DNA from: Apilactobacillus bombintestini | Lineage (GTDB): Bacteria; Bacillota; Bacilli; Lactobacillales; Lactobacillaceae | Length of the DNA: 64,000 nucleotides | Direction: 5' to 3' | Assembly: GCF_003627035.1 (NCBI RefSeq) | Contig: NZ_CP032626.1 | Span: forward strand, 124,001 to 188,000 | Shown here: positions 5,722 to 61,765 of the stretch, one piece after another | Numbering within the stretch: the first letter of the stretch is position 1 | Layout of the letters: each line of letters opens with the position of its first letter | Program-made: the position numbers and the translations under genes | The notes under the pieces: model-generated | What the model was told of the DNA's origin: nothing | Database searches by the model: none | The model's input: only the letters and a program-made list of their open reading frames with translations

Positions 5722-6528
5722 TTAACCTTGGTCGTTGTGTAGACGTGGGTCAGCTGGCTTAGTCTTAGGAATGCCACCCATAGCTTCTGGGTTTTCTTGG
5801 TAAGTGAATTTCTTACCATCTTTAGCAACTTGTCCTTCAAAGGCACGTGAACCTTCACCATCAGAGAAGTTCATTAGAACGTGGGTGAATTCATCATGTT
5901 CAATGTCGCCCATGTTACCAGGAACAATTACACCATATTTTTCTTCCAATTCTTCTTGTGCTTTCATGAATTGTAGTTGATGTTGAGTTTCTCTAGCTAA
6001 TAGGAACTTCAACATATCACGAACACCTTCGTCATCAGTCATGTCGTATAGACGGCTAACTTGTAGACGAGCTTGTGATTCACGAACTACGTTAAAACGC
6101 ATGTCAGCAACTAAGTTACCACTGGAAGTTACGTAACCGGCGTTCCAAGCAGCACCGTTAGGGTTGTTTAGACCGGCAGTTAAACCGTGAACTAAAGCAT
6201 GTTCTGGATCCATACCAGATAGTAATGCTGCCTTAGAAGGGTCTTTCTTCATTTCTTCAGCAGTCATAGTAGTTGGGGCACCTTCTAATAGGTAACCAAT
6301 CATAGTAGAAATCATTTCCACGTGACCGATTTCTTCAGTACCAGTGTCTAATAATAGGTCTTTGTACTTTTCGTCACCAGTGGATGACCAGCCTTGTGAT
6401 AGGTATGACATCATACCAGTAGTTTCACCCCATTGGCCACCTAGAGCTTCTTGGAGACGGCGTGCCATAATTGGATCTGGACGATCTGGCTTAGCGTTGT
6501 ATTGTAACTTACGAGTGTGTTTGAACAT
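5722..6528 (-). CDS. Manganese (non-heme) catalase
   Basis: 268 residues, a ferritin-like four-helix bundle enzyme that disproportionates H2O2 with a dimanganese site. Ligand motifs are visible: Glu in GGQWGE, Glu/His in TGTEEIGHVE, Glu in VVRESQARL and Glu/His in LARETQHQLQF. The N-terminus MFKHTRKLQYNAKPDRPDP and the Pro/Lys-rich tail are typical of lactobacillar and Bacillus members of this family, and the length is normal. It stands alone with a long leader. The Shine-Dalgarno is weak (GGAAAG…GGGAA). It matters here because the organism otherwise handles heme sparingly: this catalase gives peroxide defence without heme. Confidence 0.92.
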   Translation of the reverse strand: MFKHTRKLQYNAKPDRPDPIMARRLQEALGGQWGETTGMMSYLSQGWSSTGDEKYKDLLLDTGTEEIGHVEMISTMIGYLLEGAPTTMTAEEMKKDPSKAALLSGMDPEHALVHGLTAGLNNPNGAAWNAGYVTSSGNLVADMRFNVVRESQARLQVSRLYDMTDDEGVRDMLKFLLARETQHQLQFMKAQEELEEKYGVIVPGNMGDIEHDEFTHVLMNFSDGEGSRAFEGQVAKDGKKFTYQENPEAMGGIPKTKPADPRLHNDQG

Positions 6529-6877
6529 AAAAAATTCCCACTTTCCTTAATGCTAGGCGAATTGAAACGGATCCATATTAATCTCAAGTAGAGATATCCC
6601 AATAATATAAAACGATTCATTTCCCATACATAATTATTATAATTTTCGAAACATAAGCATAATTAATTACTTAATATCTCGTGTACGATTTAATATACCA
6701 CAACATATATTTTCCACCTACTATTATTACTCGAAAAATTTAAACTTTTTTCTAAAAGAGAGGATAAAACATTGCCATGAATGGGTTTTATCGTTTGAAA
6801 AAAATTTGGATAATTTTTAAAACTACGAGCCATATTATATAATTAGGATATTAAATAACGGAAAAAGGGGTACGGCA
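6529..6877. other. Divergent intergenic region between catalase and addB
   Basis: 349 bases, strongly AT-rich, no gene seen. It holds the divergent promoters of the catalase (minus) and addBA (plus). TATAAT-like hexamers occur on the plus strand near 6838-6843 and on the minus strand near 6638-6650, but no well-spaced -35 partner convinces me. A terminator-like purine-rich segment is absent, so both transcripts likely start here. Confidence 0.5.
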
Positions 6878-14406: not shown

Positions 14407-15783
14407 ATGGTTCAAGCAGAAAAAATGATTGATAACTTAGTAAAAAACGCGCAAGCTGCGTTGGCACCTATGCGTGAACTAAACCAAAAGCAAGTCGATA
14501 AAATCGTCGATGCTATGGTACAGGCGGGGTTAAAACACAGTGCAGAATTAGCCCAAATGGCCCAAGAAGAAACTGGTCGTGGTGTTACTCGTGATAAGAC
14601 CATGAAGAATATCTTTGCGGCTGGTCAAGTGGGCGAATATATTAAGGATCATAAAACAGTAGGAATTGTGGATCGTGATGATGACGCTAAAACCGTAACC
14701 ATCGCCGAACCACTAGGGGTATTAGCTGGTATTACACCGGTTACTAACCCAACTTCTACTGCCTTATTCAAAGCTATTATTGCGATGAAGACTAGAAATC
14801 CTATTATTTTCAGTTTCCATCCACAAGCTTTGAAATCATCAAGTCGTGCTGCTGAAGTAGTGTTAGATGCCGCATTAAAGGCCGGTGCTCCTAAGAATTG
14901 TATTCAATGGATTACTGAACCAAGCATTGCAGCTACCAATGAATTAATTAATCATGATGGGATAGCAACTACTTTAGCTACCGGTGGTCCCGCTATGGTA
15001 AAAGCTGCGTACTCCACAGGAAAGCCTGCATTAGGTGTAGGTCCTGGTAACGCACCATTATATGTACAAAAATCCGCTGATTTAGACGCTGCGGTAGAAG
15101 ACATTGTAGCTTCTAAGACCTTTGATAACGGAATGATTTGTGCTACTGAAAATAGCTTGGTCATCGACCATGATATTTATGATGATATGAAGAAGAAATT
15201 ATCTGCAGCAGGCGTTTACTTCGTTCCTAAGGATCAACAAGATAAATTAGCAACTACTATGTTTAACCCAGAAACTGGTAGTGTTAACGGTCCTATTCCA
15301 GGTAGTTCTGCAAAACAAATTGCTGAACAAGCTGGTATCGAAGTTCCTGCTGATACTAAGGTATTAGCTGCAGAATTAGATGGTATCGGTAAAGATTACT
15401 TGCTATCCGGTGAAAAATTATCACCAGTAGTTTCAGTATACGAAGCTGATAACCAAGATAATGCTTTTGACTTGGTAAAAGCTATCTTAAACTACGGTGG
15501 ATTAGGTCACACTGCAGGAATTAAAGCTACTGATGATGAAGTTATTACTGAATTCGGTATGCAAATGCAAGCTTGCCGTATCCTAGTTAACACTCAATGT
15601 GGACTAGGTGGGGTAGGAAACATTGTAAATGGATTAGCACCATCCTTAACCTTAGGTACAGGATCATGGGGCTTTAACTCCATTTCTCACAACGTTTCAG
15701 ATGCTGACTTATTAAACTACAAGAAGATTGCTTATCCACGTGAAAATAAGCATTTCAAAGACTTATTAGAAAAATATATGTAA
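14407..15783 (+). CDS. Acetaldehyde dehydrogenase (acetylating), AdhE N-terminal-half homologue
   Basis: 458 residues matching the ALDH half of bifunctional AdhE: EETGRGVTRDK, PLGVLAGITPVTNPTSTALFK, PALGVGPGNAP and the catalytic cysteine in FDNGMICATEN. It converts acetyl-CoA and NADH to acetaldehyde reversibly. The protein ends at …HFKDLLEKYM with a stop, and nothing resembling the Fe-dependent alcohol dehydrogenase half follows before the terminator at 15846. Full AdhE is about 870 residues, so this is a clean single-domain version. A strong AAAGGAGGG precedes the ATG. Loss of the ADH half is associated with fructophilic Lactobacillaceae. Other acylating ALDHs of similar size exist, but the sequence reads as AdhE-like. 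Confidence 0.85.
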   Translation: MVQAEKMIDNLVKNAQAALAPMRELNQKQVDKIVDAMVQAGLKHSAELAQMAQEETGRGVTRDKTMKNIFAAGQVGEYIKDHKTVGIVDRDDDAKTVTIAEPLGVLAGITPVTNPTSTALFKAIIAMKTRNPIIFSFHPQALKSSSRAAEVVLDAALKAGAPKNCIQWITEPSIAATNELINHDGIATTLATGGPAMVKAAYSTGKPALGVGPGNAPLYVQKSADLDAAVEDIVASKTFDNGMICATENSLVIDHDIYDDMKKKLSAAGVYFVPKDQQDKLATTMFNPETGSVNGPIPGSSAKQIAEQAGIEVPADTKVLAAELDGIGKDYLLSGEKLSPVVSVYEADNQDNAFDLVKAILNYGGLGHTAGIKATDDEVITEFGMQMQACRILVNTQCGLGGVGNIVNGLAPSLTLGTGSWGFNSISHNVSDADLLNYKKIAYPRENKHFKDLLEKYM

Positions 15784-44369: not shown

Positions 44370-44580
44370 GTTATCACTCCTCATATCAAAAAGTTTGTAT
44401 AGCCTATTATAGGAGCCGTAAAAAATTATACAATCACCAAAATGAACAAAAGTGTTGCATTTTTGATGAAATATTACCAAAATAGCCCTAATTTGTAACA
44501 TTAATATATTCGTTTTGCAATATTCACTGTCTATAATAGATAACAGAATTAGTTAGACAGTAAAAAAGGAGTCCTAATTG

Positions 44581-45561
44581 ATGAAGAAAAAATCAATGTT
44601 AATGTTGCTGCTAACTCTCATTGGGATTTGCTTTGTGATGATCATGAACAAACCTGCTGATACCCAAGCGGCTGCTAAACGAGCCTATGATTTGTCAGAA
44701 TGGCAAGGCCGTTTATCTGCACGTAAAGTTAAGCAACTAAAAAAAGAAGTTCCATTCGTTATTTTACGAGTACAATATGGTAGCTCATATAATGATAGAA
44801 CATTCAGTTACAATCGTAATTTATTAAATAAATATCAAGTACCATACGGAGTATATTCATTTAGTTTGTATCGTAATTCAGCATCAGCTGCTAACGAAGC
44901 ACGTTTGTTATACCAACGTGCTCCCGAAGCTAAGTTCTATGTAAATGACTTTGAAACTACTTCCATTAGTAGCAAGCGCGCTAACGCTGCTACTCGTAAA
45001 TGGGCTAGAACTATTAAGCCTATGGTAGGTGGCCGTAAAGTATTGTTCTATTCTTACCAATCCTTTATGCAAACCTACGCATCTCGTGCGCTAAACGCCT
45101 ATGATGGTTACTGGGTAGCTGCTTATACTCGTGCTGAACCTACTATGCCTCATGTAATGTGGCAATATACTGATCGTCACTATTCCAAGGCATTGCGTAA
45201 ACGTTTGGATGCCAGCAAGTTACGTCAAGATCAACAATGGTTCATTGGTGGTACTGCTGCTCAACCACAACCTGCAAAGCCAGCTCCAGCACCTGCTCCA
45301 GCTAAGGTAGTGCACCACAAGAAGAAGCATGCTAAGAAAGTGGTAAAGAAAGTTCATCACAAGAAGCGAGTTAAAAAACATCCAAAGAAACATGTCAAGA
45401 AACGTCATGTTAAAAAGATTCGTCACAAAAAGCGTCATGTTAAGAAGCATAAGAAGCGCCATGTAAAGAAACATGCTAAAAAGCATACTAAAAAACGTCG
45501 TCACGTTAAGAAAGCGCATCATAAAAAGAATCATCACAAAAAGCGTCACGTACGTAAATAG
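44581..45561 (+). CDS. Secreted GH25 muramidase with Lys/His-rich C-terminal tail
   Basis: 326 residues from ATG at 44581 (AAAAGGAG nine bases upstream). Signal peptide (about 1-31, ending TQAAA), GH25 lysozyme domain (about 34-215): AYDLSEWQG with the first catalytic Asp, FVILRVQYGSSY, VPYGVYSFS, the DFE catalytic pair in YVNDFETTS, HVMWQYTDRHY. A Pro/Ala hinge follows (AAQPQPAKPAPAPAPAK), then about 80 residues almost entirely Lys, His, Arg and Val arranged as HVKK/HHKK/KRHVKK repeats to the end. Hydrolyses peptidoglycan; the cationic tail probably binds teichoic acids or the wall electrostatically in place of LysM/SH3 domains. Confidence 0.88.
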   Translation: MKKKSMLMLLLTLIGICFVMIMNKPADTQAAAKRAYDLSEWQGRLSARKVKQLKKEVPFVILRVQYGSSYNDRTFSYNRNLLNKYQVPYGVYSFSLYRNSASAANEARLLYQRAPEAKFYVNDFETTSISSKRANAATRKWARTIKPMVGGRKVLFYSYQSFMQTYASRALNAYDGYWVAAYTRAEPTMPHVMWQYTDRHYSKALRKRLDASKLRQDQQWFIGGTAAQPQPAKPAPAPAPAKVVHHKKKHAKKVVKKVHHKKRVKKHPKKHVKKRHVKKIRHKKRHVKKHKKRHVKKHAKKHTKKRRHVKKAHHKKNHHKKRHVRK

Positions 45562-45568
45562 ATAAACA

Positions 45569-45600
45569 AAAAAAGCTAGTCAATCGACTAGCTTTTTTTA
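45569..45600 (+). terminator. Terminator of the GH25 gene
   Basis: Perfect 11-bp stem aaaagctagtc/gactagctttt with a four-base loop and T-run. Confidence 0.9.
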
Positions 45601-45636
45601 TGTGGAATTATAGATAATTATGAATAAAAATATGGA

Positions 45637-45786
45637 AAAGCAATTTTGCTTTACGAGTTAACATTGGGATAAAGCTAACTTGGGATTTCTCCCAATTACT
45701 CTGGTTGGAGTCGAACCAACGATAATAAATTATCTACCGAACAGAGCAACGAAAGGATAAGTTTTAAAATGTTGCATTCATTCATT
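45637..45786 (-). ncRNA. Candidate small RNA with tRNA-like core
   Basis: On the minus strand a promoter TTGCAA-16 bases-TATGAT (45820-45793) leads into a region with no open frame. In order it holds a ~37-base leader, the 52-nt tRNA-like element (45748-45697), a GAAA-capped hairpin TTGGGA-GAAA-TCCCAA (45695-45680) and a hairpin aaagca/tgcttt (45652-45637) followed by a T-rich stretch. This layout fits an independent ~150-nt RNA rather than the 3' UTR of the SGNH hydrolase gene, although both are on the same strand. I recognise no known RNA family. Confidence 0.4.
45697..45748 (-). other. tRNA-like fold lacking an anticodon arm
   Basis: 5' TGCTCTG pairs with 3' CAGAGTA as a 7-bp acceptor-like stem (one G·U). 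A canonical T-arm GTTGG-TTCGACT-CCAAC (45720-45704) directly precedes the 3' strand. Between them are TTCGGTA and a small hairpin GATAA-TTTA-TTATC (45734-45721). There is no room for separate D and anticodon arms and no CCA. Either a specialised tRNA mimic or a decayed tRNA gene. Confidence 0.55.
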
Positions 45787-45792
45787 ACGATT

Positions 45793-45820
45793 ATCATACT
45801 ACTAAATGATAAAATTGCAA
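45793..45820 (-). promoter_or_regulatory. Promoter of the candidate small RNA
   Basis: Minus strand TTGCAA (45820-45815), 16-base spacer, TATGAT (45798-45793). It lies within 60 bases of the SGNH hydrolase stop. Confidence 0.45.
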
Positions 45821-45855: not shown

Positions 45856-46608
45856 TTAATCATCATCCAACATGGAATCTAATTCACGGACGAAAATAGG
45901 GGTCCAACCATAACGGTATCCGGCACAAGTTGGATGAGTGTCATCTAACATGAATTCGGGATGTTGTTGATTTAATTTAGCCAAGTTGGCATTATTCCAA
46001 ATATCGATAATGGCGAAGTGCCATTTGTATTGAAGTTCGAATAGTTGTTTTCTTAAAAATTCATAAGCAGGATTAGGACTACGTAGGCAAGTGTAAAATA
46101 CGATAGGACAGTCCCAATGCTTTTGTACATACGCAATTATGTATTCAATAGCACCCAGACTGGTGGAAGTATCGAAGTCATCCATATCATAAGAACGACT
46201 GATAAAGCCCATCTTAGCGCCTTTGCGTTGATCATTAGTAGATAATTGGCAGGCGAATAAGTCTAAAGGTTGCTTCGTATCTAAGTGCTTGCGTAACCGA
46301 CTGACGTAAGATGAATCATCTAGATCAGCTAAAGTGGTTCCACTAACGGCTTCTTTGATAGCATCGACGCCGTGTTCTACACGTAAAAAGTCGACGAAAG
46401 AAATTCCGTTAGCAGCTAATCCATAGGTAACGGAGGAACCTAAAAAGGCAATTTTTTTATTATTTAACTTACCATCTACGAAAAAATCTTCAGAAGGGCG
46501 GTAAATATCGCTGTTGGCTTTTCGTAGTTCCATGCTTTTCTTTGAAACCTTCACTAGGGCAGCACCTGCTGCGGTAAACAAAGCTGTTTTAATTAATCCA
46601 TGCTTCAT
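45856..46608 (-). CDS. SGNH/GDSL-type hydrolase
   Basis: 250 residues. An N-terminal hydrophobic stretch (about 5-22, GLIKTALFTAAGAALVKV) may anchor it to the membrane. SGNH blocks: IAFLGSSVTYG (nucleophile Ser), LDLFACQLSTNDQR (Asn of block III), and the catalytic pair in FMLDDTHPTCAGY (DxxH). Such enzymes are esterases or lipases; some act on O-acetyl groups of the wall. Substrate unknown. Single gene with a leader rich in AT. Confidence 0.82.
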   Translation of the reverse strand: MKHGLIKTALFTAAGAALVKVSKKSMELRKANSDIYRPSEDFFVDGKLNNKKIAFLGSSVTYGLAANGISFVDFLRVEHGVDAIKEAVSGTTLADLDDSSYVSRLRKHLDTKQPLDLFACQLSTNDQRKGAKMGFISRSYDMDDFDTSTSLGAIEYIIAYVQKHWDCPIVFYTCLRSPNPAYEFLRKQLFELQYKWHFAIIDIWNNANLAKLNQQHPEFMLDDTHPTCAGYRYGWTPIFVRELDSMLDDD

Positions 46609-50719: not shown

Positions 50720-50749
50720 AAATAAAAAAGCAGCTAAAGATTATTCTTT

Positions 50750-51001
50750 TGAACTGAACCCCTTGAGTTGGAGAAATCTAACCTAAGGGGTTCTTTTATG
50801 TTTTCTAAAGAATTAAAATTGGCTTCCGTTAGAGATTGTTATAATGTTTTAGTCTTTACAGAAATTAGTTAAGAAATATATGTCCTATTACAATAATTAT
50901 CATATAAAACAAAAAATGGGAGGAATGTCATCGGTTGAATACCGAATTAATTTCTCCCAGAAAATATCATAACTATCCTTCAATTTTAGAGGTTCAGGTC
51001 A
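50750..51001 (+). mobile_element. IS3-family (IS150-like) remnant, internally deleted, copy 1
   Basis: 252 bases with imperfect terminal inverted repeats (left TGAACTGAACCCCTTGAG, right end reading inward TGACCTGAACCTCTAAAA). It keeps the start of orfA (MFSKELKLASVRDCYN, from 50798) and the end of orfB (YYNNYHIKQKMGGMSSVEYR). About 1 kb of the transposase is missing. The left end forms an AACCCCTT/AAGGGGTT hairpin followed by CTTTT. Confidence 0.8.
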
Positions 51002-51018
51002 GAGTTTTTTTATTTATA

Positions 51019-51744
51019 TTAAGAATTACTATGTTTTGAATATTCATCTTCATTTAAGATGGATTTAGCATAATTATCAACATGGACTCTTTGGGCACTG
51101 GTTTTGTAATAAGTATTTATTAAGTAGGCTTTGCTTACAGTTTTAGAGGTAAATGGCGTTTCTGCAACAGTTTTATTACCGGCATGTGCCATGTCTTGGT
51201 ATTTTATGGTGACGTCGGATCCGTCTACCTTAAACATTGTATCGGCAGTTCCATCACCGTTACGAGTAAGTCGATTATATTGGTGATTGTCCGTATCTTC
51301 CCTATTACTGCTTTTATCCATATAAAAGAAATCGTACAAAAATTCTGAATCTTTTGGGTTAGGTTTCTTCACAGATGTATAATCGCTATATTGATCTGTA
51401 TTACCTTTCTTACCCGATGCATTAGCATTTAGATCATTTTTATACTCATTTGCCAATACACCCAATGTTTTGTCGTCCAGTTCTACATTACTAGTAGAGT
51501 TGGATGAATTATCATCATTTGATGAGCTTGCTCCATTTGAGATGGTAGATGAATTATTATCATTTGATGAGTTTGCTTCATTTGAGATGGTAGATGAATT
51601 TGATCCTGAGCTAACCTTCTTTGAGGTTTGCCCTGCACCGTATGGCTTATCAGAGTGGTGAGCTGCTTTACTATTTCCGCAGCCTACCAACATCATCGAA
51701 ATTAATGACGCCAATCCAATTATGCATATTCTCTTTTTTAACAT
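51019..51744 (-). CDS. Putative lipoprotein carried between two IS remnants
   Basis: 241 residues from the ATG at 51744 (GAGGAGG eight bases upstream). Lipoprotein signal with lipobox MLVG-C. A Ser/Asn linker (about 30-85) contains two 15-residue repeats (SSTISNEANSSNDN and SSTISNGASSSNDD). The C-terminal part (about 90-241) has no family I recognise; it is polar with the segments SEFLYDFFYMDK and GTADTMFKVDGSDVTIKYQDM. Exposed at the outer membrane face. Flanked by same-orientation IS3 remnants, so probably acquired. Confidence 0.65.
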   Translation of the reverse strand: MLKKRICIIGLASLISMMLVGCGNSKAAHHSDKPYGAGQTSKKVSSGSNSSTISNEANSSNDNNSSTISNGASSSNDDNSSNSTSNVELDDKTLGVLANEYKNDLNANASGKKGNTDQYSDYTSVKKPNPKDSEFLYDFFYMDKSSNREDTDNHQYNRLTRNGDGTADTMFKVDGSDVTIKYQDMAHAGNKTVAETPFTSKTVSKAYLINTYYKTSAQRVHVDNYAKSILNEDEYSKHSNS

Positions 51745-51830
51745 TTTTGATTCCTCCTCGTACACATTATACTACCGTTATAATTACATAACAGATACAT
51801 ATATACAAAAAAGAGATTTTGTTGCAAATC

Positions 51831-52265
51831 TGAACTGAATCTCTTAAGTTGGAGAAATCTAACCTAAGGGGTTCTTTTATGTTCTCTAAGAAATTAACTG
51901 CCATTAAAGATTATTATAAGGATTTAGGTTTTACAGAAGTTACTAATAAGTATGATATCAAAGATTCTGCGATCCTTTATGAATGGATTAGAAAGGTTGA
52001 ACAATAAATTAATTAATGGTGAAACTAGTTACAGAATTACCATTCATTCAGATTAAGGATTTCAGTATCAAAATGGTAGATATATCAACATTTTAAAAAG
52101 CAATAAAATTTTTCAAAGCATGAGCAGAAAAGCTACTTGTCTATATATCTTATTACAATAATTATCGTATAAAACAAAAACTGGGAGGAATGTCATCGGT
52201 TGAATACCGAATCAATTTCTCCCAGAAAATAGCATAACCATCCTCAATTTTATGGATTCAAATCA
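51831..52265 (+). mobile_element. IS3-family (IS150-like) remnant, copy 2
   Basis: 435 bases, same orientation as copy 1. It keeps a 42-codon orfA start (51879-52007, MFSKKLTAIKDYYKDLGF…YDIKDSAILYEWIRKVE, an HTH), a piece of the orfB DDE core (HSD-stop-GFQYQN…QSMSRKA) and the same C-terminus (YYNNYRIKQKLGGMSSVEYR). The core carries a TAA replacing the Q after HSD, and the segment with the catalytic Glu is deleted. Inverted-repeat ends match those of copy 1. Confidence 0.82.
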
Positions 52266-60124: not shown

Positions 60125-60181
60125 AATTGACTTTTAAAAATGAATGGCTTAATATTTGCCTTGTAATTGAATATTAATAAG

Positions 60182-60308
60182 TTTCTTCGGGGCAGGGTGC
60201 AATTCCCGACCGACGGTGAGTGTTATAATACAAGTCCGTGACCCGCTTAACGGCGGTGGATGCAGTTAAAATCTGCAACCGACAGTACAGTCTGGATGGG
60301 AGAAGAAA
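60182..60308 (+). ncRNA. FMN riboswitch (RFN element), copy 1
   Basis: Complete RFN: P1 tttcttc/gaagaaa closes the element; inside are GGGGCAGGGTG, TTCCCGACCGACGGTGAG, GTCCGTGACCCG, CGGCGGTGGATGCAG, CTGCAACCGACAGTACAGT and CTGGATGGGAG. Binds FMN. It is followed by its own terminators, not by a gene. Confidence 0.95.
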
Positions 60309-60314
60309 TTAAAT

Positions 60315-60416: not shown

Positions 60417-60458
60417 ATTATCTTTATTAATTATTCAATTACTGACAATTAAATATCG

Positions 60459-60583
60459 TTCTTCGGGGCAGGGTGCAATTCCCGACCGACGGTGAGTGTT
60501 GTAACACAAGTCCGTGACCCGCTTAACGGCGGTGGATGCAGTTAAAATCTGCAACCGACAGTATAGTCTGGATGGGAGAAGAA
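60459..60583 (+). ncRNA. FMN riboswitch (RFN element), copy 2
   Basis: Nearly identical to copy 1 over the whole aptamer; the few differences lie in the variable stem-loop (gttgtaacac versus gttataatac) and one base of the GACAGTAYAGT block. It directly precedes a terminator and the ribD ribosome site, the standard arrangement for control of ribDEBAH. Confidence 0.95.
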
Positions 60584-60652
60584 TACTTAAACGTAGCTAC
60601 CAGTGTATCTAAAATACTAGTGTAGCTAGGTTGTTTTAGACGTGAATTTTTA

Positions 60653-60700: not shown

Positions 60701-61765
60701 ATGTTTTCAGATAAATATTGGATGAATATAGCGATAAAAAAAGCGCAATTAGGAGGTGAAACTTATAAAAATCCTCGTGTAGGAGCAGTAATAGTCAAAA
60801 ATAATCATTTATTGAGTATAGGGTATCATCACTATTTTGGCGGTGATCATGCGGAGGTAAATGCCTATCGTAATGTGGCAAATAAAGATGATTTAAAAGG
60901 TGCTACTTTATTTGTAACTTTGGAACCTTGTTCTCATTTTGGCAAAACTCCACCTTGTTCGCATCAAATTGTGCAATGGGGCATTAAAAAAGTAATCGTG
61001 GGCCAAATGGATCCTCATTCATTAGTGGCAGGTAAAGGAATTAACTATTTATTAAATCACGGAGTCGAAGTGATTACAGGAGTTAATGAAGCTACATGTA
61101 AAAACATTAACGTTTCCTACAACTATTTTTACACACATCAACGTCCCTTTATTACTTTAAAAATGTCACAAACCCTAGATGGCAAAATAGCTTTAAACAC
61201 CACCACACGAGATTATTTAACTAATGATAAAGCTAATGAAGATGTACAAAACCTTCGAGCAAAATATCAAGCTATCGTGGTGGGCGCCCATACTGCAGTT
61301 CAAGATAATCCCCGCTTAACGGTTCGTAATCAACACTTATCCCATCCAGCCGTACGCGTGATAATTGCCGGCAATACCGACATTAGTGCAGCTAAGCATT
61401 TGCTAGAAGATAATGCAGCTCCCACATATATTTTCACGCAAAGTTTAACCGTAAAGAATATGCAGGTGGCTAGTCATTGTCGTGTTTTTTATAAAGACTC
61501 ATGGAACCTAGCCGAAATTATGAAAGTTTTATATCAACAAAATATCCAGTCGGTTTTAGTAGAAGGTGGCAGTAAATTACATGATGCCTTCAGGGATGCT
61601 AATTTATTCGATCAAGTGATTCAATATATAGTTCCACAAATTGCAGGAGGCGATTCGCTACCAGCTTTTAATAGCTTACGACATGTAGAAAAAATGACGC
61701 ACATGAATGTTAAATCCGTAGATACAGTCGGCAATGCTATACGAATAATAACTCAAAGGAAGTGA
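60701..61765 (+). CDS. ribD: Bifunctional riboflavin deaminase/reductase RibD
   Basis: 354 residues. N-terminal Zn deaminase (about 1-145): GDHAEVNAY supplies the His and catalytic Glu, EPCSHFGKTPPCSHQI the two Cys ligands. C-terminal NADPH reductase (about 146-354): RPFITLKMSQTLDGKIAL and SVLVEGGSKLHDAF. It catalyses the second and third steps from the GTP-derived pyrimidine. Start context GGTGAG seven bases before the ATG. First gene of the riboswitch-controlled operon. Confidence 0.95.
   Translation: MFSDKYWMNIAIKKAQLGGETYKNPRVGAVIVKNNHLLSIGYHHYFGGDHAEVNAYRNVANKDDLKGATLFVTLEPCSHFGKTPPCSHQIVQWGIKKVIVGQMDPHSLVAGKGINYLLNHGVEVITGVNEATCKNINVSYNYFYTHQRPFITLKMSQTLDGKIALNTTTRDYLTNDKANEDVQNLRAKYQAIVVGAHTAVQDNPRLTVRNQHLSHPAVRVIIAGNTDISAAKHLLEDNAAPTYIFTQSLTVKNMQVASHCRVFYKDSWNLAEIMKVLYQQNIQSVLVEGGSKLHDAFRDANLFDQVIQYIVPQIAGGDSLPAFNSLRHVEKMTHMNVKSVDTVGNAIRIITQRK

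Follow-up and report, generated by a model that had tools for sequence, protein, structure and literature searches.

A truncated tRNA-Asn gene in Apilactobacillus bombintestini and the conserved element behind it, a predicted antisense RNA of the Mn-catalase leader

The DNA analysed here, called the window, is a stretch of 64,000 nucleotides (nt) of the Apilactobacillus bombintestini genome (contig NZ_CP032626.1, positions 124,001 to 188,000), and the locus of interest lies on its minus strand, between an SGNH/GDSL hydrolase gene and a convergent GH25 gene (Table 1). Two features follow one another at this locus: a 52-nt tRNA-like element, which is a truncated tRNA-Asn gene, and, directly behind it, a highly conserved element of about 95 bases, the predicted gene of a trans-acting antisense small RNA (sRNA) that would pair with the 5′ leader of the Mn-catalase mRNA.

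The truncated tRNA-Asn gene

The minus-strand sequence 45748-45697 folds into an acceptor-like stem (strands TGCTCTG/CAGAGTA, with 7 of 7 pairs formed, one of them G.U) and a canonical T-arm (GTTGG-TTCGACT-CCAAC), with a single 5-bp hairpin replacing the D and anticodon arms, exactly as described in the first-pass annotation of this DNA. In the Rfam check that the annotation had proposed, the tRNA model (RF00005) aligned end to end but scored 21.1 bits (E 0.063, 451 bases), short of the gathering score of 29; with this sub-threshold score, and with both the D and anticodon arms absent, the element does not belong to the family. ARAGORN detected zero tRNAs in the 64-kb window. A geometry scan of both strands of the window (7-bp acceptor stem and T-arm, TTCNA loop, 44-67 nt) returned the 52-nt element as its sole match; since at least one match was also obtained in 6 of 40 random Markov windows (mean 0.15), the acceptor/T-arm geometry alone is just moderately improbable.

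Analysis of the orthologous site in the other 15 genomes of the genus revealed, in eight of them, an intact tRNA-Asn(GUU) gene, the last of two or three tandem copies, with the 3′ flank of the window behind it. The remnant form is found in one of the nine genomes with site and flank, and all eight relatives that share the flank carry the full tRNA-Asn. The 52-nt element is therefore a truncated tRNA-Asn gene, what is left of the last gene in a tRNA-Asn(GUU) array, and the site is free of insertions. This origin is settled by synteny: in seven relatives, collinearity with the window extends over about 37.4-56 kb, on both sides of the site and with the SGNH hydrolase and GH25 genes included (the contig of the eighth, G002, begins at the tRNA). 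In comparison with these seven, the window is without the extra tRNA copies and has about 1.5 kb extra (50.74-52.26 kb). Aligned with the array tRNAs, the remnant has lost sequence in its D/anticodon part by three or more deletions. The first-pass annotation had favoured a new small RNA with a tRNA-like core and had offered a decayed tRNA gene as the alternative; with an obvious full tRNA at the orthologous site and a remnant here, it is the alternative that stands. A small RNA is probably present nonetheless, in the sequence after the remnant, which had been noted just as trailing hairpins.

The genome of A. bombintestini is complete (1.29 Mb), with 62 tRNAs above the cut-off and two intact tRNA-Asn genes elsewhere, and the array is therefore dispensable in it. 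It has to be noted that a count of tRNAs with CCA near the 3′ end (19 of 62) is loose, includes discriminator overlaps and was not used. Of 301 family genomes, 109 from 22 of the 40 genera (the query's own genome included) had matches to a query made of the A. kunkeei array and element, mostly in its tRNA part. ARAGORN called tRNA-Asn in 23 of 23 such family loci given to it, and in 21 loci inspected by eye the last array tRNA was mostly followed by a plain terminator. The array thus looks like an ordinary second class of tRNA-Asn, and an unusual role for it was rejected. In four genomes of the genus (G007, G009, G010 and G011) an array lies, by eye, at apparently the same site, without the element. 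As a side observation, most inter-tRNA spacers in tandem tRNA-Asn arrays of Lactobacillaceae (L093, L095-L097, L099-L103, L105) open with a small hairpin that varies in sequence and keeps its position (by eye), possibly as a processing aid.

The conserved element and its complement in the Mn-catalase leader

In a 20-kb alignment of eight genomes (the window and seven relatives), positions 45601-45695 were the most invariant of 19,907 segments of 95 bases, with 96.8% invariance in comparison with 89.5% for the next-best segment and a mean of 45%, and they held the longest and the second-longest invariant run of the alignment. All eight relatives have the same 95 bases behind the tRNA, from which the window differs by CG instead of AA and by one inserted A; the blocks surrounding the element show pairwise identities of 75.8-94.3%. 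The element lies directly 3′ of tRNA-Asn on the same strand in the relatives, that is, in the position of a tRNA 3′ trailer. It is single-copy and present in 9 of the 16 genus genomes, that of the window included, a count that excludes a 32-base match in G007 and a second, 34-base match in G014. The weak AU-rich matches of G007 and G014 (L050, L051) appear by eye to be AT-rich chance, and others of the kind were seen in G009, G129, G078, G162 and G310 (L117-L121); G013 and G015 gave no match to the element. An exact 20-mer of the element occurred in eight records among 84,980 species genomes, all of them Apilactobacillus, in a collection that may lack the record of the window itself. Outside the genus, no match was found in 25 genomes (up to 18 candidates scored in each), and short AU-rich pieces alone matched in 301 family genomes (two best candidates per genome scored), so that the absence of the element beyond Apilactobacillus rests on those 25 genomes, those two candidates per genome and the exact 20-mer.

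The RNA of the element is predicted to fold into three hairpins followed by an unpaired AU-rich tail and a terminator, with a z score of -6.6 for the window RNA and of -3.5 when 45600-45696 was folded without the terminator. The hairpins of the first-pass annotation do exist, but the conserved unit does not end with them at 45637: it continues to about 45600, where the terminator follows. This terminator-like hairpin is clear by pattern (2 found, 0.3 expected). Promoter-like sites of the form TTGCAT/TTGCAA ... TATTAT precede the arrays of several relatives, the pattern scan being without a match in L073 and L078. In the fold of the unprocessed RNA, base-pairing is possible between the AU-rich tail and positions 45785-45777 of the predicted 5′ leader, and processing might therefore also unmask the tail. 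No Rfam family matched the element at gathering score. A small protein was considered and rejected: the relatives have, by eye, a frame of 21 codons from ATGTTAACT, which a one-base insertion shifts in the window, and the DNA of the element is invariant at third positions too.

A search of three genomes for the complement of the hairpin 2 loop, UUUAUCCCAAU, returned eight places, namely three elements, one A. kunkeei catalase leader and four others (by eye, L131 and L135 are coding, L133 is the start of a peptidase-like frame in A. kunkeei, and L134 is intergenic in G006). The A. kunkeei match lies before the Mn-catalase gene, and there the complementarity to the element extends beyond the loop. 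A longer pattern retrieved from 16 genomes the nine elements and six further matches, all six in the Mn-catalase leader, and the same pattern reversed gave zero matches in these genomes. A separate observation concerns L134 (G006:C2:675960 region), an A. apinorum intergenic sequence that has two motifs of the element, TATAATTCCAC and TTTATCCCAAT, in opposite order, either a second related RNA or chance.

An Mn-catalase gene was found in 14 of the 16 genus genomes (the G008 copy is a piece at a contig end), with no match in G013 and G015. Its leaders were aligned with the reverse complement of the element, using the window's own element for the window and the A. kunkeei one for the rest. Ten of the 14 leaders, from the nine genomes with the element and from G001, aligned better than shuffles over 65-84 bases, at about -131 to -45 from the start codon; shuffles as good numbered 0 of 1000 in nine leaders and 1 of 1000 in the window's own. 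The four remaining leaders, from genomes without the element, did not beat shuffles (253-875 of 1000 as good). The complement is present in the Mn-catalase leader of all nine genomes with the element and in none of these four, a conserved complementarity to the mRNA of another locus such as a trans-acting antisense sRNA has.

The sequence TATATTAAATCG was found at -169 to -174 in 14 of 14 genus Mn-catalase leaders, and the complement should therefore lie inside the transcript; the consensus promoter scan did not list the TATATT site of the window. All 10 leaders with the complement retain its core, AUUGGGAUA, which in the predicted folds belongs to the less paired regions of each leader (mean unpaired value 0.55-0.82). 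One base of the G004 leader changed from A to G, retaining a G.U pair with the element (read from the alignment). The predicted duplex of element and Mn-catalase leader had an energy of -44.5 kcal/mol, the best among the 48 predicted genes with 100 codons or more in the window (mean -26.3, sd 5.3), followed by the leaders of the plus-strand genes at 14407 (-38.0) and 48956 (-37.3).

A predicted antisense RNA and its alternatives

Altogether, these comparisons suggest that 45695-45600 probably encodes a trans-acting antisense sRNA that would pair with the 5′ leader of the Mn-catalase mRNA and likely control Mn-catalase. The best reading is that this predicted sRNA was co-transcribed with the tRNA-Asn array and outlived the tRNA. 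Transcription would start at the promoter inherited from the array (45820-45793) and end at the terminator (45566), the 11-nt loop would make the first contact with the exposed core in the leader, and pairing would then zipper along the AU-rich tail. The effect might be repression through destabilisation of the catalase mRNA, towards which the balance leans slightly; masking or unmasking of the Shine-Dalgarno sequence was rejected as the mechanism, given the lack of a consistent effect in seven leaders. Because the sRNA would ride on the tRNA transcription unit, its supply would be tied to growth. If true, direct RNA pairing would tie peroxide defence to the transcription unit of a tRNA, and the locus would show how the 3′ trailer can become the product under selection even as the tRNA gene itself is lost.

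Several observations weigh against the antisense sRNA. The promoter-like site noticed in the first-pass annotation exists, but its pattern occurs no more often than expected by chance (1 found, 2.6 expected), and the element is too uniform between species for covariation in its three hairpins. Shuffling gave duplexes as good as the real one with the Mn-catalase leader in 1 of 500 cases for the leader and in 4 of 500 for the element, and the background of the energy ranking is made of the genes of the window, not of the whole genome. The leaders of the window and of the apinorum clade have lost the AAGC part of the complement, a change left uncompensated in the element. In silico blocking of the complement clearly opened the Shine-Dalgarno sequence in G008 alone among the seven leaders. 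G001 has the target with no element found, and one of its contigs seems to start about 85 bases past the expected place of the element. Finally, element and target may share one ancestral origin, and the co-occurrence counts would therefore amount to about one evolutionary event.

The element could also be a DNA site, either a weak DnaA-box-like cluster or a set of regulator sites, of which the catalase leader would share an inverted operator. It holds four sites within two mismatches of TTATCCACA, which we take to be the DnaA-box consensus, as many were found in 0 of 500 Markov shuffles, and the 64 kb contain just three such clusters. However, none of the four sites comes within one mismatch, and the motif was picked after inspection of the sequence. 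The match in the leader is moreover a collinear antisense one of about 65-85 nt, which is far longer than an operator and lies downstream of the presumed promoter, with its core exposed in the predicted RNA fold, and we regard this explanation as unlikely. The tRNA mimic of the first-pass annotation, which would bind tRNA enzymes, EF-Tu or T-box leaders, is highly improbable and found no support in the comparison: the acceptor/T-arm geometry is indeed intact, but it has no anticodon arm, the conserved part of the locus is the 3′ flank and not the mimic, and eight of the nine genomes have an intact tRNA in its place. Even less credible is an attachment-site remnant of an integrated island, also raised in that annotation. 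Although tRNA genes commonly serve as integration sites, the seven relatives are collinear on both sides with nothing inserted, the nearest stretch seen in the window only is the 1.5-kb one 5 kb away, and a 30-nt core was without an exact match in viral contigs.

A narrower question is whether the acceptor/T-arm minihelix has been kept. None of its 12 acceptor/T-stem pairs is broken in comparison with the relatives: one T-stem pair went from C-G to T-A, with both sides changed, and one change to G.U goes beyond the variants among array copies. Three random substitutions among the 24 paired bases left all 12 pairs intact in 3-6% of the simulated cases. That the minihelix was kept by selection is suggestive only, because some changes may predate the decay of the tRNA, and the first-pass argument that the pairing speaks against simple decay accordingly holds weakly. 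Plain decay, with the tRNA-Asn gene a functionless dying pseudogene and the conserved flank separate and independent of it, has about even chances; it concerns the minihelix step only and is compatible with the antisense sRNA. The orthologous intact genes, the dispensability of the array with two intact tRNA-Asn genes remaining, and similar acceptor and T-stem variants in other array tRNAs all agree with it. Against it, at least three deletions hit the D/anticodon part while every pair of the minihelix stayed formed, at the low chance given by the simulations, and the 95-nt conservation is left unexplained. The minihelix may instead have been kept as a cut signal for RNase P and RNase Z (a gene for the latter is present in the genome), setting the 5′ end of the sRNA, a possibility that we rate somewhat below even. 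The RNase Z of B. subtilis touches its substrate at the acceptor and T-arm only (PMC7479834), but the enzyme is contrasted there with archaeal ones on aberrant substrates, and a cut at the remnant may therefore fail. More doubtful is a scenario in which the regulator began as a copy of the catalase leader, inverted and placed behind the tRNA-Asn array, borrowing its promoter and RNase P/RNase Z sites, the tRNA being then reduced in A. bombintestini to a processing tag.

The predicted sRNA resembles those trans-encoded antisense sRNAs that pair loop-first with mRNA leaders in its promoter-like site, terminator, exposed loop and complement in a 5′ leader, and differs from them in the unusual length of its complementarity and in its fusion to a tRNA unit. 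In mascRNA/MALAT1 a tRNA-like fold acts as the cut signal that sets an RNA end, but this system is eukaryotic, with another order of parts, and is an analogy only. The nearest precedent is tRNA-Other of Bacillus cereus (Rogers et al. 2012, PMC3399842), a non-translating pseudo-tRNA within a longer regulatory RNA, whose surrounding sequence was reported to have complementarity to several oxidative stress genes. The pseudo-tRNA in a larger regulatory RNA and the oxidative-stress link are common to both cases; tRNA-Other is reported to flank a genomic island, which the remnant, collinear on both sides, does not, and here the intact tRNA-Asn ancestor is visible in relatives, with a defined 3′ element and one clear predicted target. 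The nearest tRNA-trailer RNA, as described in a review (PMC8166272, citing Lalaouna et al. 2015), is 3′ETS-leuZ of Escherichia coli, a 53-nt sponge for other sRNAs that lies directly 3′ of a tRNA and is excised from its precursor. The element shares that position and differs from this account in its predicted pairing with an mRNA leader and in surviving the loss of the tRNA. Among the matches listed in the open-licence PMC literature there was no report of this RNA, nor of an sRNA acting on Mn-catalase; an A. kunkeei RNA study centred on mRNA and left small RNAs for further study (PMC10496945).

Other features of the window

The coordinates of the locus and of the predicted target are collected in Table 1.

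Table 1. Features of the tRNA-Asn remnant locus and of the Mn-catalase locus in the window
Feature	Position	Strand	Basis or remark
Truncated tRNA-Asn gene	45697..45748	-	Acceptor stem 45748-45742/45703-45697
Replacement hairpin of the remnant	45734-45721	-	
T-arm of the remnant	45720-45704	-	
Position 73 of the remnant (A)	45696	-	
Whole ultraconserved element (predicted sRNA body)	45600..45696	-	Alignment, single-copy search
Hairpin 1 (UGGGA-GAAA-UCCCA)	45681..45694	-	Fold; small hairpins follow array tRNAs there in relatives
Hairpin 2, 11-nt loop at 45673-45663 (predicted recognition loop)	45656..45680	-	Fold
Hairpin 3 (AAAGCA-AAAU-UGCUUU)	45637..45652	-	Fold
Invariant AU-rich tail	45601..45636	-	Complementary to upstream part of Mn-catalase leader
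Promoter-like site TTGCAA-N16-TATGAT	45793..45820	-	Placed as the promoter-like sites before tRNA-Asn arrays in several relatives
Predicted 5′ leader of the transcript	45749..45786	-	Inferred from -10 position; fold
Terminator-like hairpin with T run	45566..45601	-	Probably also serves the convergent GH25 gene
SGNH/GDSL hydrolase gene, upstream	45856..46608	-	
Convergent GH25 gene	44578..45561	+	
Mn-catalase gene	5722..6528	-	95% identical to A. kunkeei protein matching PF05067 and NF052557; ATG at 6528
Predicted target, leader stretch complementary to the element	6580..6644	-	Core at 6603-6595
TATATT of presumed Mn-catalase promoter	6692..6697	-	

A search with the SGNH hydrolase protein of the window gave no match in G001, G013 and G015, in a search run without a positive control. 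The GH25 protein ends in a long C-terminal low-complexity tail rich in lysine and histidine (KKHVKKRHVKK...). The stretch 50740-52260, present in the window and absent from the seven collinear relatives, has one frame (51019-51765, minus strand) resembling a lipoprotein. Elsewhere in the window, two near-identical tandem FMN riboswitch aptamers (60179-60311 and 60455-60587, plus strand; 117.4 and 113.3 bits) lie upstream of a reading frame at 60701, which from its sequence is presumably RibD.
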